64,000 bases of DNA, taken from positions 1,178,001 to 1,242,000 of the forward strand of contig CM034142.1 of the NCBI GenBank assembly GCA_019914995.1. The letters are read 5' to 3'. Source of the DNA: Acanthochlamys bracteata (taxonomy: Eukaryota > Streptophyta > Magnoliopsida > Pandanales > Velloziaceae). The position numbers and the translations under genes are program-made. The notes below the pieces were generated by a model, which saw only the letters and a program-made list of their open reading frames with translations, ran no database searches and was not told the DNA's origin. The first letter of the stretch is position 1, and each line of letters starts with the position of its first letter. Below, one piece after another: positions 1 through 39,175 of this stretch.

Positions 1-1659
1 ACATTGCCATTATCCTCCAATTTGAGCAGCTGGGGTTGGTAGAGCAATCCCATTGCAGTTCCCAGATTTTGGGACGTCCGCTGGTTGTTGTTGCTTTGGA
101 TGTTGTACTGGTGATGAAACACAGATGAGCCCGGGCTGTTCTCGCCGTCAAGAACAGCGCTTGAATCACTCTCTGATGACCCGATTTCTTTGTAAATCAA
201 GGTTCCGGCTGATGATCTTGTTCGATGGTTATTGCTTTGCATGTTGTACTGATGATGAAATGCGAATGAGCTGGGGCTGTTCTCGTTGTCGAGAACAGGG
301 CTTGAATCACACTCTGATGACCCAATTTCTTTGTAAATCAAAGTTCCGGCGGATGCCAGATCATCAAGTACAACTGATGCCTTGTTGTCTGACGCCGTTG
401 ATGCTCCAGGCTCTTCTTTAACGGAGACTGATATGCTTTCTTCTGCTCCATGCTTTACCTTCAATGCCTTGACCTACAATCACAAATGGTTTCAGCGAAG
501 CTCAAGAATTCTAGCCAACAAATTTATGTTCATCTTCATTGCATCACTGCTGCATGTTTATATATAAACGGAAACAAAGATGTATTTGGATCGATGCTTA
601 CTTCAGAGAGAAGGTTTTGCTTGTCAAGGTGAACTAAATCATAATCCTGCTTGAGTGAATCAAAATCCTGCTTGAGTGAATCATATAGGCTTCTCAGAGC
701 AGAGTAGTCACGCTCCAGCTGCTTCGTTTTCCACCGGGCACGACGGTTTTGGAACCAAACAGCAACCTGTCGCGGCTGCAGGCCGAGTTCTTCTGCAAGC
801 TTGGCTTTCCTCTCAGGTTCGAGCTTGTTTTCAACGTCGAAACTTTTCTCAAGAGCGCGAACCTGGTCAGAACTCAGTCGCCGTTTCTTCTCACCGACGA
901 ATGCTGAACTGTCACCTGAGATCATTCCGTCGACCATATCGTCTTCGTCAAAGAGAGCCGATTGGTGGTGACTGTGTACCTGCTTCTGATCTTCATCTGC
1001 TAGTATCATCATTTCACAAGGCAACCCTTATCAGATCCAAAGAGCATAGTGAAATAAACAAGAAAATTAATTGCCACTATTGATTTATGATTACAGCTTA
1101 TAAGAACATAACTGCTGGAGATGTTATCCCAATCAAAGTCGAGCAATGAGATTTAAAGAACACACAATGAAATAGATATCAGTTAATGGAGTAAATAATC
1201 TGCTCTGCTCAAGATAGATGTTGTCGAGAGACAAATGTTTTGCAGATTCCAAGAAGAAAAAAGAACAGAACTTTTGCAGAGAAGAAAAAAAGCTTTTCTG
1301 CAGCAGTCTGCTGAAGATTTGTCGAATCAAATATAAGGAAATATTGCAAAAGCTCAATAGAAGAAAAAGGAGAAATCAAGTTCTCAAGAAAACTGCTTTT
1401 TCTTTTAATTCTTTGTTTTTGTTTATAAATGATCTATGCAATATTATAGAAGAGATCTGGGTTTCTATCACAAGAATCAGAATAATGCTAACAGAAAAAA
1501 AAACTAATTTTCTTAAATAAAATTAACATTCACGCTATAATTCAACTAATTGAACAAAGCTAAGCTTAAAATCAGTGCTTTCTTATAGAAAACATGAGGA
1601 AAGAAGAAAATGTTAGTACCCTCTCCAAAGGAGTCTGTGTTGCTGGCTGATCTCTTCAT
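1..1659 (-). CDS. HD-Zip class I homeodomain-leucine zipper transcription factor, ATHB5/6/16-like (3' end outside window)
   Basis: A sequence-specific nuclear transcription factor; this clade is linked in Arabidopsis to ABA and growth responses. Spliced model on the minus strand: exon 1 1659-1620, exon 2 1026-602, exon 3 473 to beyond base 1, joined in phases 1 and 0 with GT-AG ends; 312 residues are visible. Exon 1 reads [13 protein letters not shown], close to the MKRxxSSDS start of ATHB5/6. The homeodomain spans about residues 59-115, with helix 3 [10 protein letters not shown] at 104-113. The zipper follows at once, with d positions L117, L124, L131, L138, V145, L152 and L159. The C-terminal part has the clade motif SDSSAVL..ENSP, here present twice, and ends near LLKLEDNGN, matching the FVKMEE region of ATHB5, so only about 30 residues should be missing. 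Exon 2 is also open back to a TTG at 1024, but the start is set by the exon 1 ATG and a good pyrimidine-rich acceptor at 1027. Confidence 0.9.
83..357 (-). repeat. 141-bp in-frame tandem duplication in HD-Zip exon 3
   Basis: Two copies lie exactly 141 bp apart (for example the anchors at 101/242, 161/302 and 201/342). They encode residues 196-242 and 243-289, each with [10 protein letters not shown], then DSS.VLD.ENSP and FHHQYN. The copies differ at scattered bases, so the event is not brand new, but the frame is intact. Confidence 0.93.
641..682 (-). repeat. 21-bp tandem duplication adding a leucine-zipper heptad
   Basis: Two 21-bp units (641-661 and 662-682) differ at one base. They encode SLKQDYD and SLKQDFD, consecutive heptads of the zipper, giving seven d positions where ATHB1 and ATHB6 have six. 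Confidence 0.9.
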
Positions 1660-29200: not shown

Positions 29201-32200
29201 ATTCCTTTTATGCTTCTTTAGACAATAAGTTCATTTGGAAAGTGTTCTTAACAAATTTAGCCTCCTTCAACTTATTGTTGAACATCAATTGAATGTTGAA
29301 GTTATTTTGTACATAAATGGTGACTCCATCATGTACACTCTGCAAGGCTTCAGCATTTCTTTCTGTGCTTCCAGTCTTGAATTGGATTTCTCGTTTCAAG
29401 ATCAATAGAAAAACAAAGAAAAGAAAAAAGAGTTAATAACAAATGTTTAATTGTTACTGAAGAGGAACCAACTTCTTTTGGCATCCAGAGCAGTCATCAA
29501 GTCATCCTTGATACCACGCAATTTTTATTCAAAAATAGAGATTACTAGAAAAATCAAGCTTTCCTTTTATAACAGTCAATTTGAGGTCTTCTATATAACC
29601 CCTTTAGATGGTTCCCTAAATTTATGGTGCATCAGTTACAGTAGGTACCATAAAAGGATTAGATTATTATTTGCAACTGAATGGTATTGTTGGTGAAGGC
29701 TTGGCGGGGAAGCTTTAAAAAAATGTGAATGCACTGACTAAAAGTTTAGACCAGGTTAGGAACTCTCCGAGTGTGCTATTTGTCATTTGGATTTTCAATC
29801 TTGCTCACAGATACAGGCTGCTCAAAATTTAGGATGATAGTATACACTGATTACAAAATGTATGAGATAAAGAAAATTTGCATCAATAGGGACTTTAGTG
29901 CTATTGTCGATTGCAAGTATTGGTTTTGTGACTAAGCTACCTCGTAATTGTTGATCCTTCTCTTTTGGTAAAAACTTTGGTTCTCCTTTGAAATTGGAAA
30001 ACTTGTTTTCTCATATTGGAAAATGAAAAGGGAAAATGCAAGATAGCAATGCAGAAGTTCAATAAATACCAATTAAGCGAACTACATTGCTCCCTGATTC
30101 TGTTGAGCAATGCATTTACTCAGTTAGTTTGCAAACAAGTTTTTACTTCAAGTTAGGTATAAGACTGATTATCAATCCTTTTTATGTATCCTTTCTTTTC
30201 ATTGGTTTCATGTATTATGCCTTTTATTGTTATGAGTGCAGCTGTTCTGGTTTAGACTTTTGTTAATCAACTCTGTCTGTTATAGGAGGAATCCAACATC
30301 CTATCTTCTCCAACTAGTGAAAGTGAGCAGAATGCTAAAGAAAGGTCTGTTTCCTCCCATGGTCCTTTTAGCTATCTTAATCTCTTCTTGCAAAGGGTAT
30401 GAAAGCTAAAGGAATTAGCTATTGTTAGATCCAAGTTGAGCCTGGCTAAATGTTTAGTACATTAAACAAATATTAAGAAGCGAATATAATTGAGCCAGGT
30501 AGCTGAGGCTCTAGACAGAGTGTGACTTTTGACTGCTGAAGCTTGCCTGACAATTAAATATTTGTTAATTTGTAGCTTGGCTCAGCTCTTAAATCTTCAT
30601 TCTTGATAGTAAGCACATTATTAGAATCCTGGTTTTCTCAAAAGACAAAAGTAGCAGATATTTTTGGAGAGCATATTGTCTCTTCTAATTATTACAAATC
30701 GAATCTTTATAAATTCTTTAAAAGTAATTTTAAATAATCAAAATAATAATTAAAAACACGTTATAAAATCCTGACATAATGCAGCGGTAGTAGCAATGTC
30801 GATGATTTTGCCGGAGAAGGCAATCCTGATGGCAGGAGGGTTACTAGTGCCGCAGAGGAAGATGGAAAATATTTATGAATTAATTACAAAGAGTTTTTTC
30901 TTAATTCCTTGCTAGCATTAACTAATGCCACATTAACAGAGTGGTATATGTGAAAGTTGAGTGAAACTTGAGTGATACTTTACGTATTTGACAAAATATG
31001 TAGCTCTTGCTATCTCCACAGATCTGGAGGATTTTGGAGTTTCTTGGTAAGAAATTCAACCAGAAGGGCGGAGACCCAATCTGAACAATTGGAGAACAAG
31101 GTTTCACAGTGTTCCTTTCTTGCTACTTCATTTAAAATATGAGCTCTCTATTGTATTATGTATGATAACTTGCGCCACATAATTTCAGATCGATTATATG
31201 TTCAGGTGCTGTAATGACAATAGGCTTCACATTTTGTTTGTAACTATTTTTTCCTTATGAATGCTATAACTATATATTTATGCAGACTACTGTTATGATT
31301 CAACAATTGTCTTGATTCTGGAAGTGCAGATAATCTGCTGATACACTCTTTTGCATAAGCCATCTTCTGTCAAACTGAACTTTCTCTTTTATTATGATAC
31401 TTGTGTTTATGTATTTGTGGAGTTTATTTATTATTTTGGTTCTTATTAATCCACATATGTCTATTATGTTTACAGAAATGGAGTTGTACTTACATAATTC
31501 TAAATTCCAATGGCAATTAAGGGTTTCTTACAAGCAAAGAAATATGGAGAAATTATCTATACATTATTGTTTCCTTCAAAGAATGCCAATTTATAATTCC
31601 TAGGAATCTGTAACTGCGTCAAGATGGTGTTGATGCCAGAAATTCAACCTTTCGTTGATGGCTTTATACCACCATGCTTACTTGTATGTGAATACATCAT
31701 CTCAAAAAACCAAAAAAAATTCTGTGCAAATTGATATTCTCTTATTTCTAAGAATACTGAATGTTGTTCTTAAATAACGTTTCATAGCACTTTTGAATGG
31801 GAAGCTGATCTTCTAGTTGAGGATCTCTATTCTTTTTGGTCTTGCGGAAATGTTAGGTAGAAAGTACCAGTTCATGTAATATAAGAATATGAAAACCTTC
31901 AGGAGCATATAAGTAGGGGTAATTGTTGTTTAAGTGTTTTACATCTTCCTGATTATTCATTCCATTTATATCAGTAGTTCTCTTGCAGGTGTTTGCTACA
32001 GAAACAGAGAAGGGTGACTCAGAATCCGATGATATTTACCGTTTTGAACTTTTGAGGCGTGAGCTGATAGAACTTGAAAAGAGAGTCCAAAGAAGTACTG
32101 AAGAGGTACGAACAACAGAGGTAATTCATCCGAAGAGTGCTTATCTACGTCTCTTTTTTTTATATGTCAGCTGATGCCGAAATAATTGAGGAGACGGAGG

Positions 32201-32534
32201 GAGTACTCATGGTTGTCTACTATAGTGAAGTAGAGATGGCTGTTGGGAGTTTAACTCTCATCTCTCTTTTTCCCTTCAGCATTAGTTGGGATTATTCTGA
32301 ATAGATTTTGCCTTCCAGATTTAGCACAACTTTTTAGAAAGTTGCTCATTCATGAATTGCAGCAATTTCATATCTGTTTTGTGATCTTTTTTTTTTTGTG
32401 TGTGATTTTTTCTATGCTCTTGAATCCTTTTATGGATTAGTGGAAGGGCATAAATGCACTAAGAGTTATCTCTTAAAGTCATTTACGGGGGAGCTTTATA
32501 AGTTGGAGGAAGTATTAGTCACTAAATCTTAAAC

Positions 32535-32597
<63 letters not shown>

Positions 32598-35500
32598 GAT
32601 AAGGGCACATCGTTCTTTACCCGCAATTCAGTCTGATTCCACCGGTACAAAGCTTCAAATTATATATATATATATAGAAGATGGATAGGGGCACTCTCTT
32701 CTTATGGGCATTTTTGGGAACTTTGTCTCCAGTTTATGGCTGAGGTGACCTCCAAATTCAATATTCACCGTTGGATATGAAGAACTATGAGTTAGAAATC
32801 TATCCATAAAATTTCAGCTCAATCGAATCACGAATTCACCTCCATCCGATCACTTGATCAAGATGATAGAAATGATACAATATATATATATTTTTAAGTT
32901 TTCTTACTTTATATCATCATGATCAAGTGATCGGATGGAGGTGAATTCGTGATTCGATTGAGCTGAAATTTTATGGATAGATTTCTAACTCATAGTTCTT
33001 CATATCCAACGGTGAATAATGAATTTGGAGGTCACCCTAGCCATAAACCGGAGAGAGAGTGCCCATAAAAAAGAAGTGCCCCTATTCCTCCATATATATG
33101 GGATAGGATATAGGCACATGTAGGCCTTAAAGGCACATGTGTACACATGCCGGCCAAAAGTGGCCGGCGAGCTCTCCAAATCCAATCTCCACCGTTGGAT
33201 ATGAAGAACCATGAGTTGGGAACATGTTGATAAAATTTCAGCTCAATCGAAATACGAACCGACCTCCATCGGAACTCTTGATCAAAGTGACATAAAAATA
33301 AAATATATATCTTTTGTCAAATTTAAAAGTTTATGTCATTTTGATCAAGAGTTCCGACGGAGGTCGGTTCGTATTCCGATTGAGCTGAAATTTTACAACA
33401 TGTTCCCAACTCATGGTTCTTCATATCCAACGGTGGAAATTAGATTTGGAGAGCTCGCCGGCCACTTTTGGCCAGCATGTGTACACATGTGCCTTTAAGG
33501 CCTACATGTGCCTATATATATATCTATATAGGGGCACTCCCTCTCAAAAATGTGCGTAAAAAAGTTTAAATATAATATTCACCATTTGATACGAAAAATT
33601 ATGAATTATAAATATGGTGACAAAATTTTAGCTCAATTTAGGCACGAATCAATCTCCATCAAATCTCTTGAACAAAATGACATAAAAAAGAAAGAAAATT
33701 ATATTTTATTATTTATACATTTGATCAAGAGCCGAATAGAGGTTGATTCGTATTCTGATTAAGTTGAAATTTTATCAGCATATTTTTTACTAGTAGTTCG
33801 TCATATTAAACGGTAGATTGAATTTAGAACTTTAGATGGAAAATGGTACCCCTAAGGACGGGGTGCCCCCCTATCCTCATCTAATATGTATGCAATATAT
33901 ATATATATATATATATATGGATATTGCCATCTTAGGTGCACATTGGTACACATTACCAAACATAAGTGCGTAGGAAAGTTCAAAATTAAATCTCCACAGT
34001 TGAATATGAAGAATTAAAGTCGTGAATAAGCCGAAAAAATTTAGCTTAATCGTATCACAAAAGATCTCCATCTATCTTTTAATCAAGATGACAAAAAAGA
34101 GGAAAAAAAAAAAACATATGTTTGCAATTTTTGTCAACTTTTTTTTTCTGTCATCTTGATCAGAATGATGGATGGAGATCGATTTGTGATCGGATTAAAT
34201 TGAAATTTTGTCGGATTATTCATGACTCATAGCTTCATATATAATGGTTGAGATTAGATTTTGAGCTTTTAACGTATTTATGTGGGCTAATGTGTACCAA
34301 TGTGCATCTAAGATAGTAATGTGCACATATCTTGTTACCATATATATATATGAACTCCCATCCAGTTTATGGCAGAGAGATTTGCAAATTCAATTTTCAT
34401 AATTGAATATGAAGAATTATGAGTTATCACAAAATTTCAGCTCAATTTGATTATGAATCGACGACCTCTATTCGTCTACTTGGTCAAGACAAAAAGAAGG
34501 CAATATGTATAGCTTCGAGTTCTTTTTTAAAAATTTTATATTTCGGATATTTTGATCAACTGGACAAATGGAGGTCGATTCGTAATACGAGTGGGCTGAA
34601 GTTTTGTCAATTCATTTTTAACTCATAATTCTTCATATCTTTGGATTTGGAGATCTCTCTGGAGAGGAAGTGCTAAGTAGTGCTCATAAGGAGGAAGTGC
34701 CTATCACTCCCGGTGTATGTATCTATATATATATATATATATAGCTGATGCCACTGCTATTCTGGTTTTAGGAGAGAAAATGTCTGAATTTTTGGTATTT
34801 AAAGCAAGGTACTAGAAATTGAATTCCTAGATGATCCTGATCGTGTACCTGGAAAAAAACTATAATAATTATTGAAGACTAAATGATGAAGCATATTTGT
34901 TTTCATTTCTTCTGCAGGAACCAGATCTTATAGGTGATAATGATCAAGCAGCCATGAAGACAAGCATGCTGGTTAAGGCAGAGAAGAGACCTAACATATT
35001 CACCAAATCTATTAACAAGCTGAAGAATACTAGCACGGTATTCATAGTTTTATTTGTTCGAACAGTCAGTGGGTTCTTCTTTTGCATTCCCTCCATATTA
35101 TCGTTGTATTTTATGTTTGTAGTAAGGTTGGCAATGTCTATTACTATAATTTCTTATCCTGTTATTGCCTCTTAATCCCAACATATGGGCAGACATATAA
35201 CTAGTACACTTACTCATAAGGTTCTTAACTTCCGACCAAATTTTAAGAAGCACATCTAACCTATTAACAGAAGCGGCTGTTATTGGGTTAATCTAAACTC
35301 TTAGCATGTGCAAGTTCCTATTGGGTAAAAGGCATCTTAGGAACTGAACTTTAAATGTATGACCACATGAGTTAGGTCGAGTCTAGATGTGAGGACTATT
35401 AGACTAAACAGGTTTGGTTAAAAACCAGGTTTGTTTTTAATCACAAAGACAAACGTGATTCACATCTTCGGTCTATAGTAAATGAAATTGTCTCGTGGTT

Positions 35501-38505: not shown

Positions 38506-39175
38506 GAAACATAAACAAATCAATAAATCAATTAAATAAGCAAGCAAGTTAGATCGATCGAGATCTCGAACAGAAATAAAATGTTTTCATTCGATAAGCT
38601 TAAACCGATCAATCAATCAATCGAGAAAGAGAGAAATTGCTATTTACGTTGTGAAGGAAGCCATTCTTGTTATCTCTCGTTGCGGAGGCACATGTGTGGA
38701 GGTGGATTCTTTCGATTCTAGTCGTAAATAACAATTTGATATCAGAACTTTGAATTAACTTATAATTTAAATTAATCAGTCTATATTATAATAAAAAGAA
38801 AAACTGAAAATTGCTCAAATACTTCTTTTTTTTTGTTTTTCTTTTTCTGGAAAACTGGTAGGGATTGTGAAGTTTCACATGATGTCCAATCTATAAAATA
38901 TAAAAAATCAGATGTCTCTTTCTCTCTCAACGTTTCAACAATTCACAGCAACCGTTCACGTGTACACTCACTTCCATAAATACAAACATAACAAAACCAA
39001 CGAAGAGTCTCGCGACAGTCTCTCACTCACTCACTGCTCTCGCTCTCTCTCTCTCTCTTGATTCATCGATCGGTTTCAGCTTATCGAATGAAAACATTTT
39101 TGGTTTTCTGTTCGAGATCTCGATCGATCTAGCTTGCTTGCTTGTTTAAATGATTGATTGATTTGTTTATGTTTC
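38506..39175. repeat. Inverted duplication of the ISA3 5' leader (arms 38506-38635 and 39043-39175)
   Basis: The left arm is a diverged reverse complement of the right arm: GAAACATAAACAAATCAAT, AGCAAGCAAG(T/C)TAGATCG, ATCGAGATCTCGAACAGAAA, ATGTTTTCATTCGATAAGCT and AAACCGATC occur in the same order when the right arm is inverted. The loop is about 400 bp and holds the likely core promoter. The right arm is the CT-rich leader just before the ISA3 ATG. Confidence 0.9.

Follow-up and report, generated by a model that had tools for sequence, protein, structure and literature searches.

Five related foldback elements, bordered by TA tracts, lie end to end in a predicted intron of a likely LETM1-like gene

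The window analyzed here is a 64-kb stretch of DNA from Acanthochlamys bracteata (contig CM034142.1). Near its middle, two exon-like ORFs, at 31989-32120 (followed by the donor GTAATT at 32121) and at 34918-35037 (preceded by the acceptor TTCTGCAG, ending at 34917), flank a predicted intron. Joined translations of the downstream exons gave a partial match to the LETM1 RBD domain (PF07766; E 3.1e-4) that scores 20.8 bits and stays below the cut-off (25.3), and the label LETM1-like is for this reason likely rather than proven. We take the C-terminus of the host gene to resemble plant LETM1-like C-termini; a PDB search with it returned nothing significant (best E 0.34). Elsewhere in the window, an ORF at 539-1027 (- strand) has the Homeodomain and HALZ Pfam matches of an HD-ZIP type gene.

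The intron holds five related foldback elements (E1-E5) that run consecutively from 32676 to 34724, and 74% of its length is taken up by the array. The features are:

32121-34917, + strand: predicted host intron, 2797 nt, between the flanking exon-like ORFs
32661-32676, unstranded: left-border (TA)n tract of the array
32676-33092, unstranded: foldback E1
33092-33099, unstranded: 8-nt TA run at the E1/E2 junction
33097-33512, unstranded: foldback E2
33513-33530, unstranded: TA tract at the E2/E3 junction, interrupted once
33529-33895, unstranded: foldback E3
33895-33918, unstranded: TA tract at the E3/E4 junction
33917-34341, unstranded: foldback E4
34340-34351, unstranded: TA tract at the E4/E5 junction
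34350-34724, unstranded: foldback E5
34724-34743, unstranded: right-border TA tract of the array

Element size in the array is about 370-430 bp; each foldback is unbroken, and none is inserted into another. (Several of our scripts ran E2 through 33530, with the TA spacer included.) We aligned each unit to its own reverse complement and compared the score with those of 200 dinucleotide-preserving shuffles. All five units beat 200 of 200 shuffles, with observed scores (shuffle maximum in brackets) of 294 (46) for E1, 347 (32) for E2, 94 (40) for E3, 200 (44) for E4, and 70 (38) for E5. The five foldbacks that a first-pass annotation had placed here are thus borne out. It had also called them head to tail: the units do lie end to end, but a wording about orientation says little for near-palindromes.

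As RNA, E1 to E5 have predicted folding energies of -290.9, -348.2, -96.7, -195.6, and -130.8 kcal/mol, with z-scores of -35.4, -45.3, -7.1, -22.0, and -8.4, respectively (100 shuffles each). The predicted hairpins of E1, E2, and E4 are very stable, as might be expected if the array were maintained for a function as a cluster of intronic hairpins, either a small-RNA source or a splicing modulator. We consider this most improbable, given that the arms of E3-E5 have decayed, that the 64-kb window contains no match at the gathering score of any Rfam family, and that microsatellite-inserted MITE copies in pineapple yield fewer 24-nt siRNAs than non-microsatellite ones (PMC8449440). A known RNA family as the identity of the array was rejected on the same Rfam result. 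Most likely, the array is a passenger that is spliced out with the intron.

Every border of the array (six of six) has an alternating TA run no shorter than 8 nt, a count that is descriptive and no independent test, since the tracts guided our placing of the borders. The window contains 28 such runs, and 2.2% of its positions are no more than 20 nt away from one. Eight of the runs start within 32640-34760, six at the borders and two in the loops of E1 (32880-32891) and E2 (33303-33310), which are the youngest-looking elements and have TA outside too; a ninth lies just upstream of the array (32535-32554). TA microsatellites had been described between the elements, and they are present at all junctions, but the E1/E2 spacer is an 8-nt TA run only. 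Tandem Repeats Finder (default score of 50) listed a TG tract at 32554-32597 and nothing else, neither the TA tracts nor a tandem array of units. Members of the Mutator-like (MULE) superfamily make 8-11 bp target-site duplications and have autonomous relatives with a mudrA-type transposase. With A/T-only words excluded, no target-site duplication of at least 8 nt was found at the borders of E1-E5, where the TA tracts would mask one; on the same basis, single duplicated border words of 7 nt, element-end or TA-like, occur at E1, E2, and E4, and none at E3 and E5.

These tracts need not have been the target of insertion. They might instead be part of the elements, or have been made by them through post-insertion expansion, a reading consistent with the occurrence of TA runs in two of the loops (E1 and E2). 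Occupied sites in Medicago likewise have more repeats than empty sites (PMC4486113), and PMC5907723 describes strong expansion at TA-flanked elements of maize. However, sites without an insertion in rice and Medicago are already TA microsatellites (PMC5907723, PMC4486113), and we hold it unlikely that TA is the product rather than the target. Targeting and expansion may both be true.

Across the window, an arm profile matched only the ten arms of E1-E5 and, at E 6.1, a stretch inside E4, so that no further family member was detected. BLAST gave three matches outside the array (27, 28, and 32 nt), all to the loop or mostly to the loop. Exact core patterns, which fit E1/E2-like copies only, had no match in viral_contigs or in the prokaryotic genome_contigs, where plant DNA is not expected, and six core strings occurred in none of the papers of an open-access collection. 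Pfam found no transposase domain in the 10 ORFs scanned out of 110 (at least 70 aa), and the read-through frames of the + strand from 19.0 to 36.9 kb gave no match, a weak negative given that the same scan missed the LETM1 domain. A separate inverted repeat lies at 38506-39175, with arms of ~130 bp (94% identity over 71 nt and 89% over 57 nt) whose inner ends are ~410 nt apart; no direct repeat of more than 6 nt was found at its borders.

We aligned the ten arms with MAFFT, right arms reversed, and defined as the core the 132 alignment columns adjoining the loop. Core arm identity is 97.6, 95.1, 66.7, 80.5, and 76.8% for E1 to E5 (K2P 0.025, 0.051, 0.463, 0.229, and 0.284). Whole-arm identity within elements is 90.8, 93.0, 62.8, 79.3, and 75.4%, where the right arm of E2 was counted through the TA spacer; the outermost left end of E3 is badly placed in the alignment, which makes the outer figures for E3 weak. 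Between elements, identity is 57-69% over whole arms and 66-81% in the core. The graded erosion that the first-pass annotation had read from the letters, strongest in the third element, is thus confirmed, E3 being the most eroded at 66.7% in the core; its figure of ~96% for the arms of E2 was inaccurate, as we measured 93.0% whole-arm and 95.1% in the core, and the best core belongs to E1. A common core is shared as it had proposed, but the blocks CCGTTGGATATGAAGAA and AAATTTCAGCTCAATCG are exact in E1 and E2 only and have diverged in E3-E5.

How the ten arms group was assessed with trees. A tree that splits left from right arms was rejected (AU p 8.5e-48 for full arms, 4.5e-70 for the core), and a tree constrained by element was not rejected (p 0.16 and 0.51, respectively). 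Arms pair by element with full-arm support of 98-99 in E1, 99 in E2, and 99 in E4 (92, 90, and 94 in the core tree). The arms of E3 and E5 pair by element weakly or not: those of E5 pair at a support of 54-56 with full arms, and both elements are unpaired in the core tree. The two arms of E3 resemble each other no more than they resemble the arms of other elements, as expected if both have decayed longest from a common form.

The zones outside the core are more varied. We compared them by local alignment, scored against 200 shuffles of one partner. For each of E1-E5, E1-E3, and E2-E4, all four arm pairs score above 198 or more of the 200 shuffles. Meanwhile, the scores of the four E1-E2 pairs were reached by 14, 137, 47, and 115 of 200 shuffles, i.e., these zones are unrelated by this measure, in agreement with the differing outer ends noted earlier. 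The remaining pairs are mixed (for example, 0 of 200 shuffles reach the score of E3-left with E4-left, and 60 of 200 that of E3-left with E5-left). Because E1-E2 fails where E1-E5, E1-E3, and E2-E4 pass, the family has at least two kinds of outer end, E1-like and E2-like, around a common core. The outer ends of E2 are of the GGCACATG...GCCGGCC type, and those of E4 are related to them. The outer ends of E5 are related to E1, its left outer zone being 32 nt vs 72 nt on the right (~40 shorter).

Allowing up to 2 mismatches, we found the motif GGATAGGGGCACT four times in the window, where 0.35 would be expected: at the left and right ends of E1, at the left end of E3, where alone it directly adjoins TA, and outside the array at 32597-32609. 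It is absent, at that tolerance, from E2, E4, and E5. At the outside site, a (TA)n(TG)n tract (32535-32597) is followed by GGATAAGGGCACA, which resembles the terminal motif of E1 and E3 (2 mismatches); ~50 nt further on, the next TA tract begins. The stretch 32597-32660 may be what is left of a sixth element, and the arm profile had no match there.

The two arms of E1 have not diverged evenly. They differ at 14 of 62 outer sites vs 3 of 123 core sites (Fisher p 2.1e-5, one among five such tests), and transitions make up 12 of the 14 outer differences and none of the 3 core differences. The contrast is weaker in E3 (p 0.021, over 15 badly aligned sites), and none was seen in E2 (p 0.16), E4 (p 0.7), or E5 (p 0.59). 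This pattern is at odds with simple clock-like decay and may reflect conversion between the arms within the inner palindrome. At substitution rates used for dating of 7e-9 to 1.3e-8, core K2P values translate into ages of ~1-4 My for E1 and E2 and ~9-33 My for E3-E5, figures that are unreliable because E1 diverges unevenly. We can imagine, as a doubtful reading that we put forward tentatively, that members of one foldback family repeatedly returned to a single TA site of the intron for millions of years, and that the inner palindrome of at least one copy, E1, was homogenized by arm-to-arm gene conversion. If so, dates taken from arm divergence would be wrong for such elements, and the array would preserve, layer by layer, the subfamily turnover of one family.

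Conversion between arms also enters a different account of the whole array, in which one ancestral foldback was locally duplicated in tandem and gene conversion then held the two arms of each copy similar. The core common to all five units and their end-to-end placement are what tandem duplication would leave, the unclear pairing of the arms in E3 and E5 is compatible with it, and the E1 core arms, far more alike than the outer ones, look as conversion of an inner palindrome would make them. However, duplication of whole units would not yield the unrelated outer ends of E1 and E2, and conversion would be needed separately in several units; the authors who described similar clusters in pineapple read them as independent adjacent insertions, not as tandem duplication (PMC8449440). 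After the tree-topology test and the outer-zone comparison we do not favor this account and think it quite improbable. Separate insertion of members of one family into TA repeats fits better, given the pairing of arms in E1, E2, and E4, the rejection of the left/right tree, and the differing outer ends.

We have good confidence that five non-autonomous foldback DNA transposons of one divergent family make up this microsatellite-linked array and that each was inserted separately into or beside TA. From our analysis, E1-E5 are probably microsatellite-targeted MITEs of the Mutator-like kind. We suggest the following course, modeled on published relatives. A MULE transposase supplied in trans would move the non-autonomous foldbacks, and each copy would land separately, its arms still alike, in or beside an intronic TA tract, the presumed target. 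TA kept or expanded at both sides of the insertion would offer a fresh landing site for the next, such that elements would pile up end to end with none interrupting another. After insertion, the two arms of each copy would drift apart, and the array would record insertions of family members at different times. Repeated insertion over time, as the first-pass annotation had proposed, agrees with the grouping of arms in E1, E2, and E4, the graded divergence, the outer ends, the non-nested order, and the TA borders. On the other side stand the poorly paired arms of E3 and E5, the uneven divergence of E1, and the negative searches, within their scope, for target-site duplications, further copies in the window, and a transposase domain.

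Arrays of this kind have been reported before, contrary to the earlier remark that none was described (PMC5907723, PMC8449440). Guayule, rice, sorghum (a cluster of eight), and citrus all have non-nested arrays in which small MULE-derived elements are joined by TA (PMC5907723). These SaTar elements span about 230-1900 bp, belong to families most of which are defined by TIRs, have microsatellite (often TA) borders, and are never nested (PMC5907723). The array described here is like theirs in end-to-end joining, microsatellite borders, and non-nested order. Guayule arrays mix different families and rice also has single-type clusters (PMC5907723); here all five elements share one core.

In pineapple, Ac-mMITE/mt-MITE elements form 4024 clusters that include 46.1% of full-length copies; they measure 210-570 bp, have TIRs of 40-180 bp, and lie in (TA)n, with 18.0% of microsatellite-inserted copies in introns (PMC8449440). 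Pineapple genes with copies upstream or downstream showed no significant difference in expression, the intronic group not being part of that comparison (PMC8449440). Compared by description, these too are clustered, non-nested MITEs in (TA)n; by their stated sizes, however, they are not full foldbacks, and the pineapple copies are recent, whereas E1-E5 range from young to old.

MuTAnT of Medicago truncatula is a 292-bp foldback with near-identical 144-bp arms that lies in (TA)n, has ends of GGGG/CCCC of variable length, and is found in introns or UTRs in 36 of 218 copies; Medicago also has a putative autonomous MULE (PMC4486113). In E1 and E3, TAGGGG(GG)CAC lies close to the ends and may be a counterpart of these terminal G runs; the elements of our array are longer, and the Results and Discussion of PMC4486113 report no MuTAnT arrays. 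The comparison with Micron made in the first-pass annotation was apt. Micron of rice, equated with rSaTar2 in PMC5907723, is a small element targeted to (TA)n; Micron-type MITEs occur mainly in Poaceae and Rosaceae according to PMC12550479, and PMC8227079 gives 15 carrot families of MITEs in microsatellites (MiMs). Micron and MiMs resemble E1-E5, by description, as small elements in (TA)n.

Of the features of a microsatellite-targeted MITE array, TA flanks, long inverted repeats, and non-nested joining are found here, and the size, long arms, TA borders, and non-nested order of E1-E5 match the descriptions of SaTar, Ac-mMITE, and MuTAnT (for arrays, the first two only). The array is a clear example of an already described kind, not a new architecture. 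It adds a single-family, age-graded example to TA-linked MITE arrays, and could serve to test whether repeated targeting, each round accompanied by TA expansion, is how such arrays grow.
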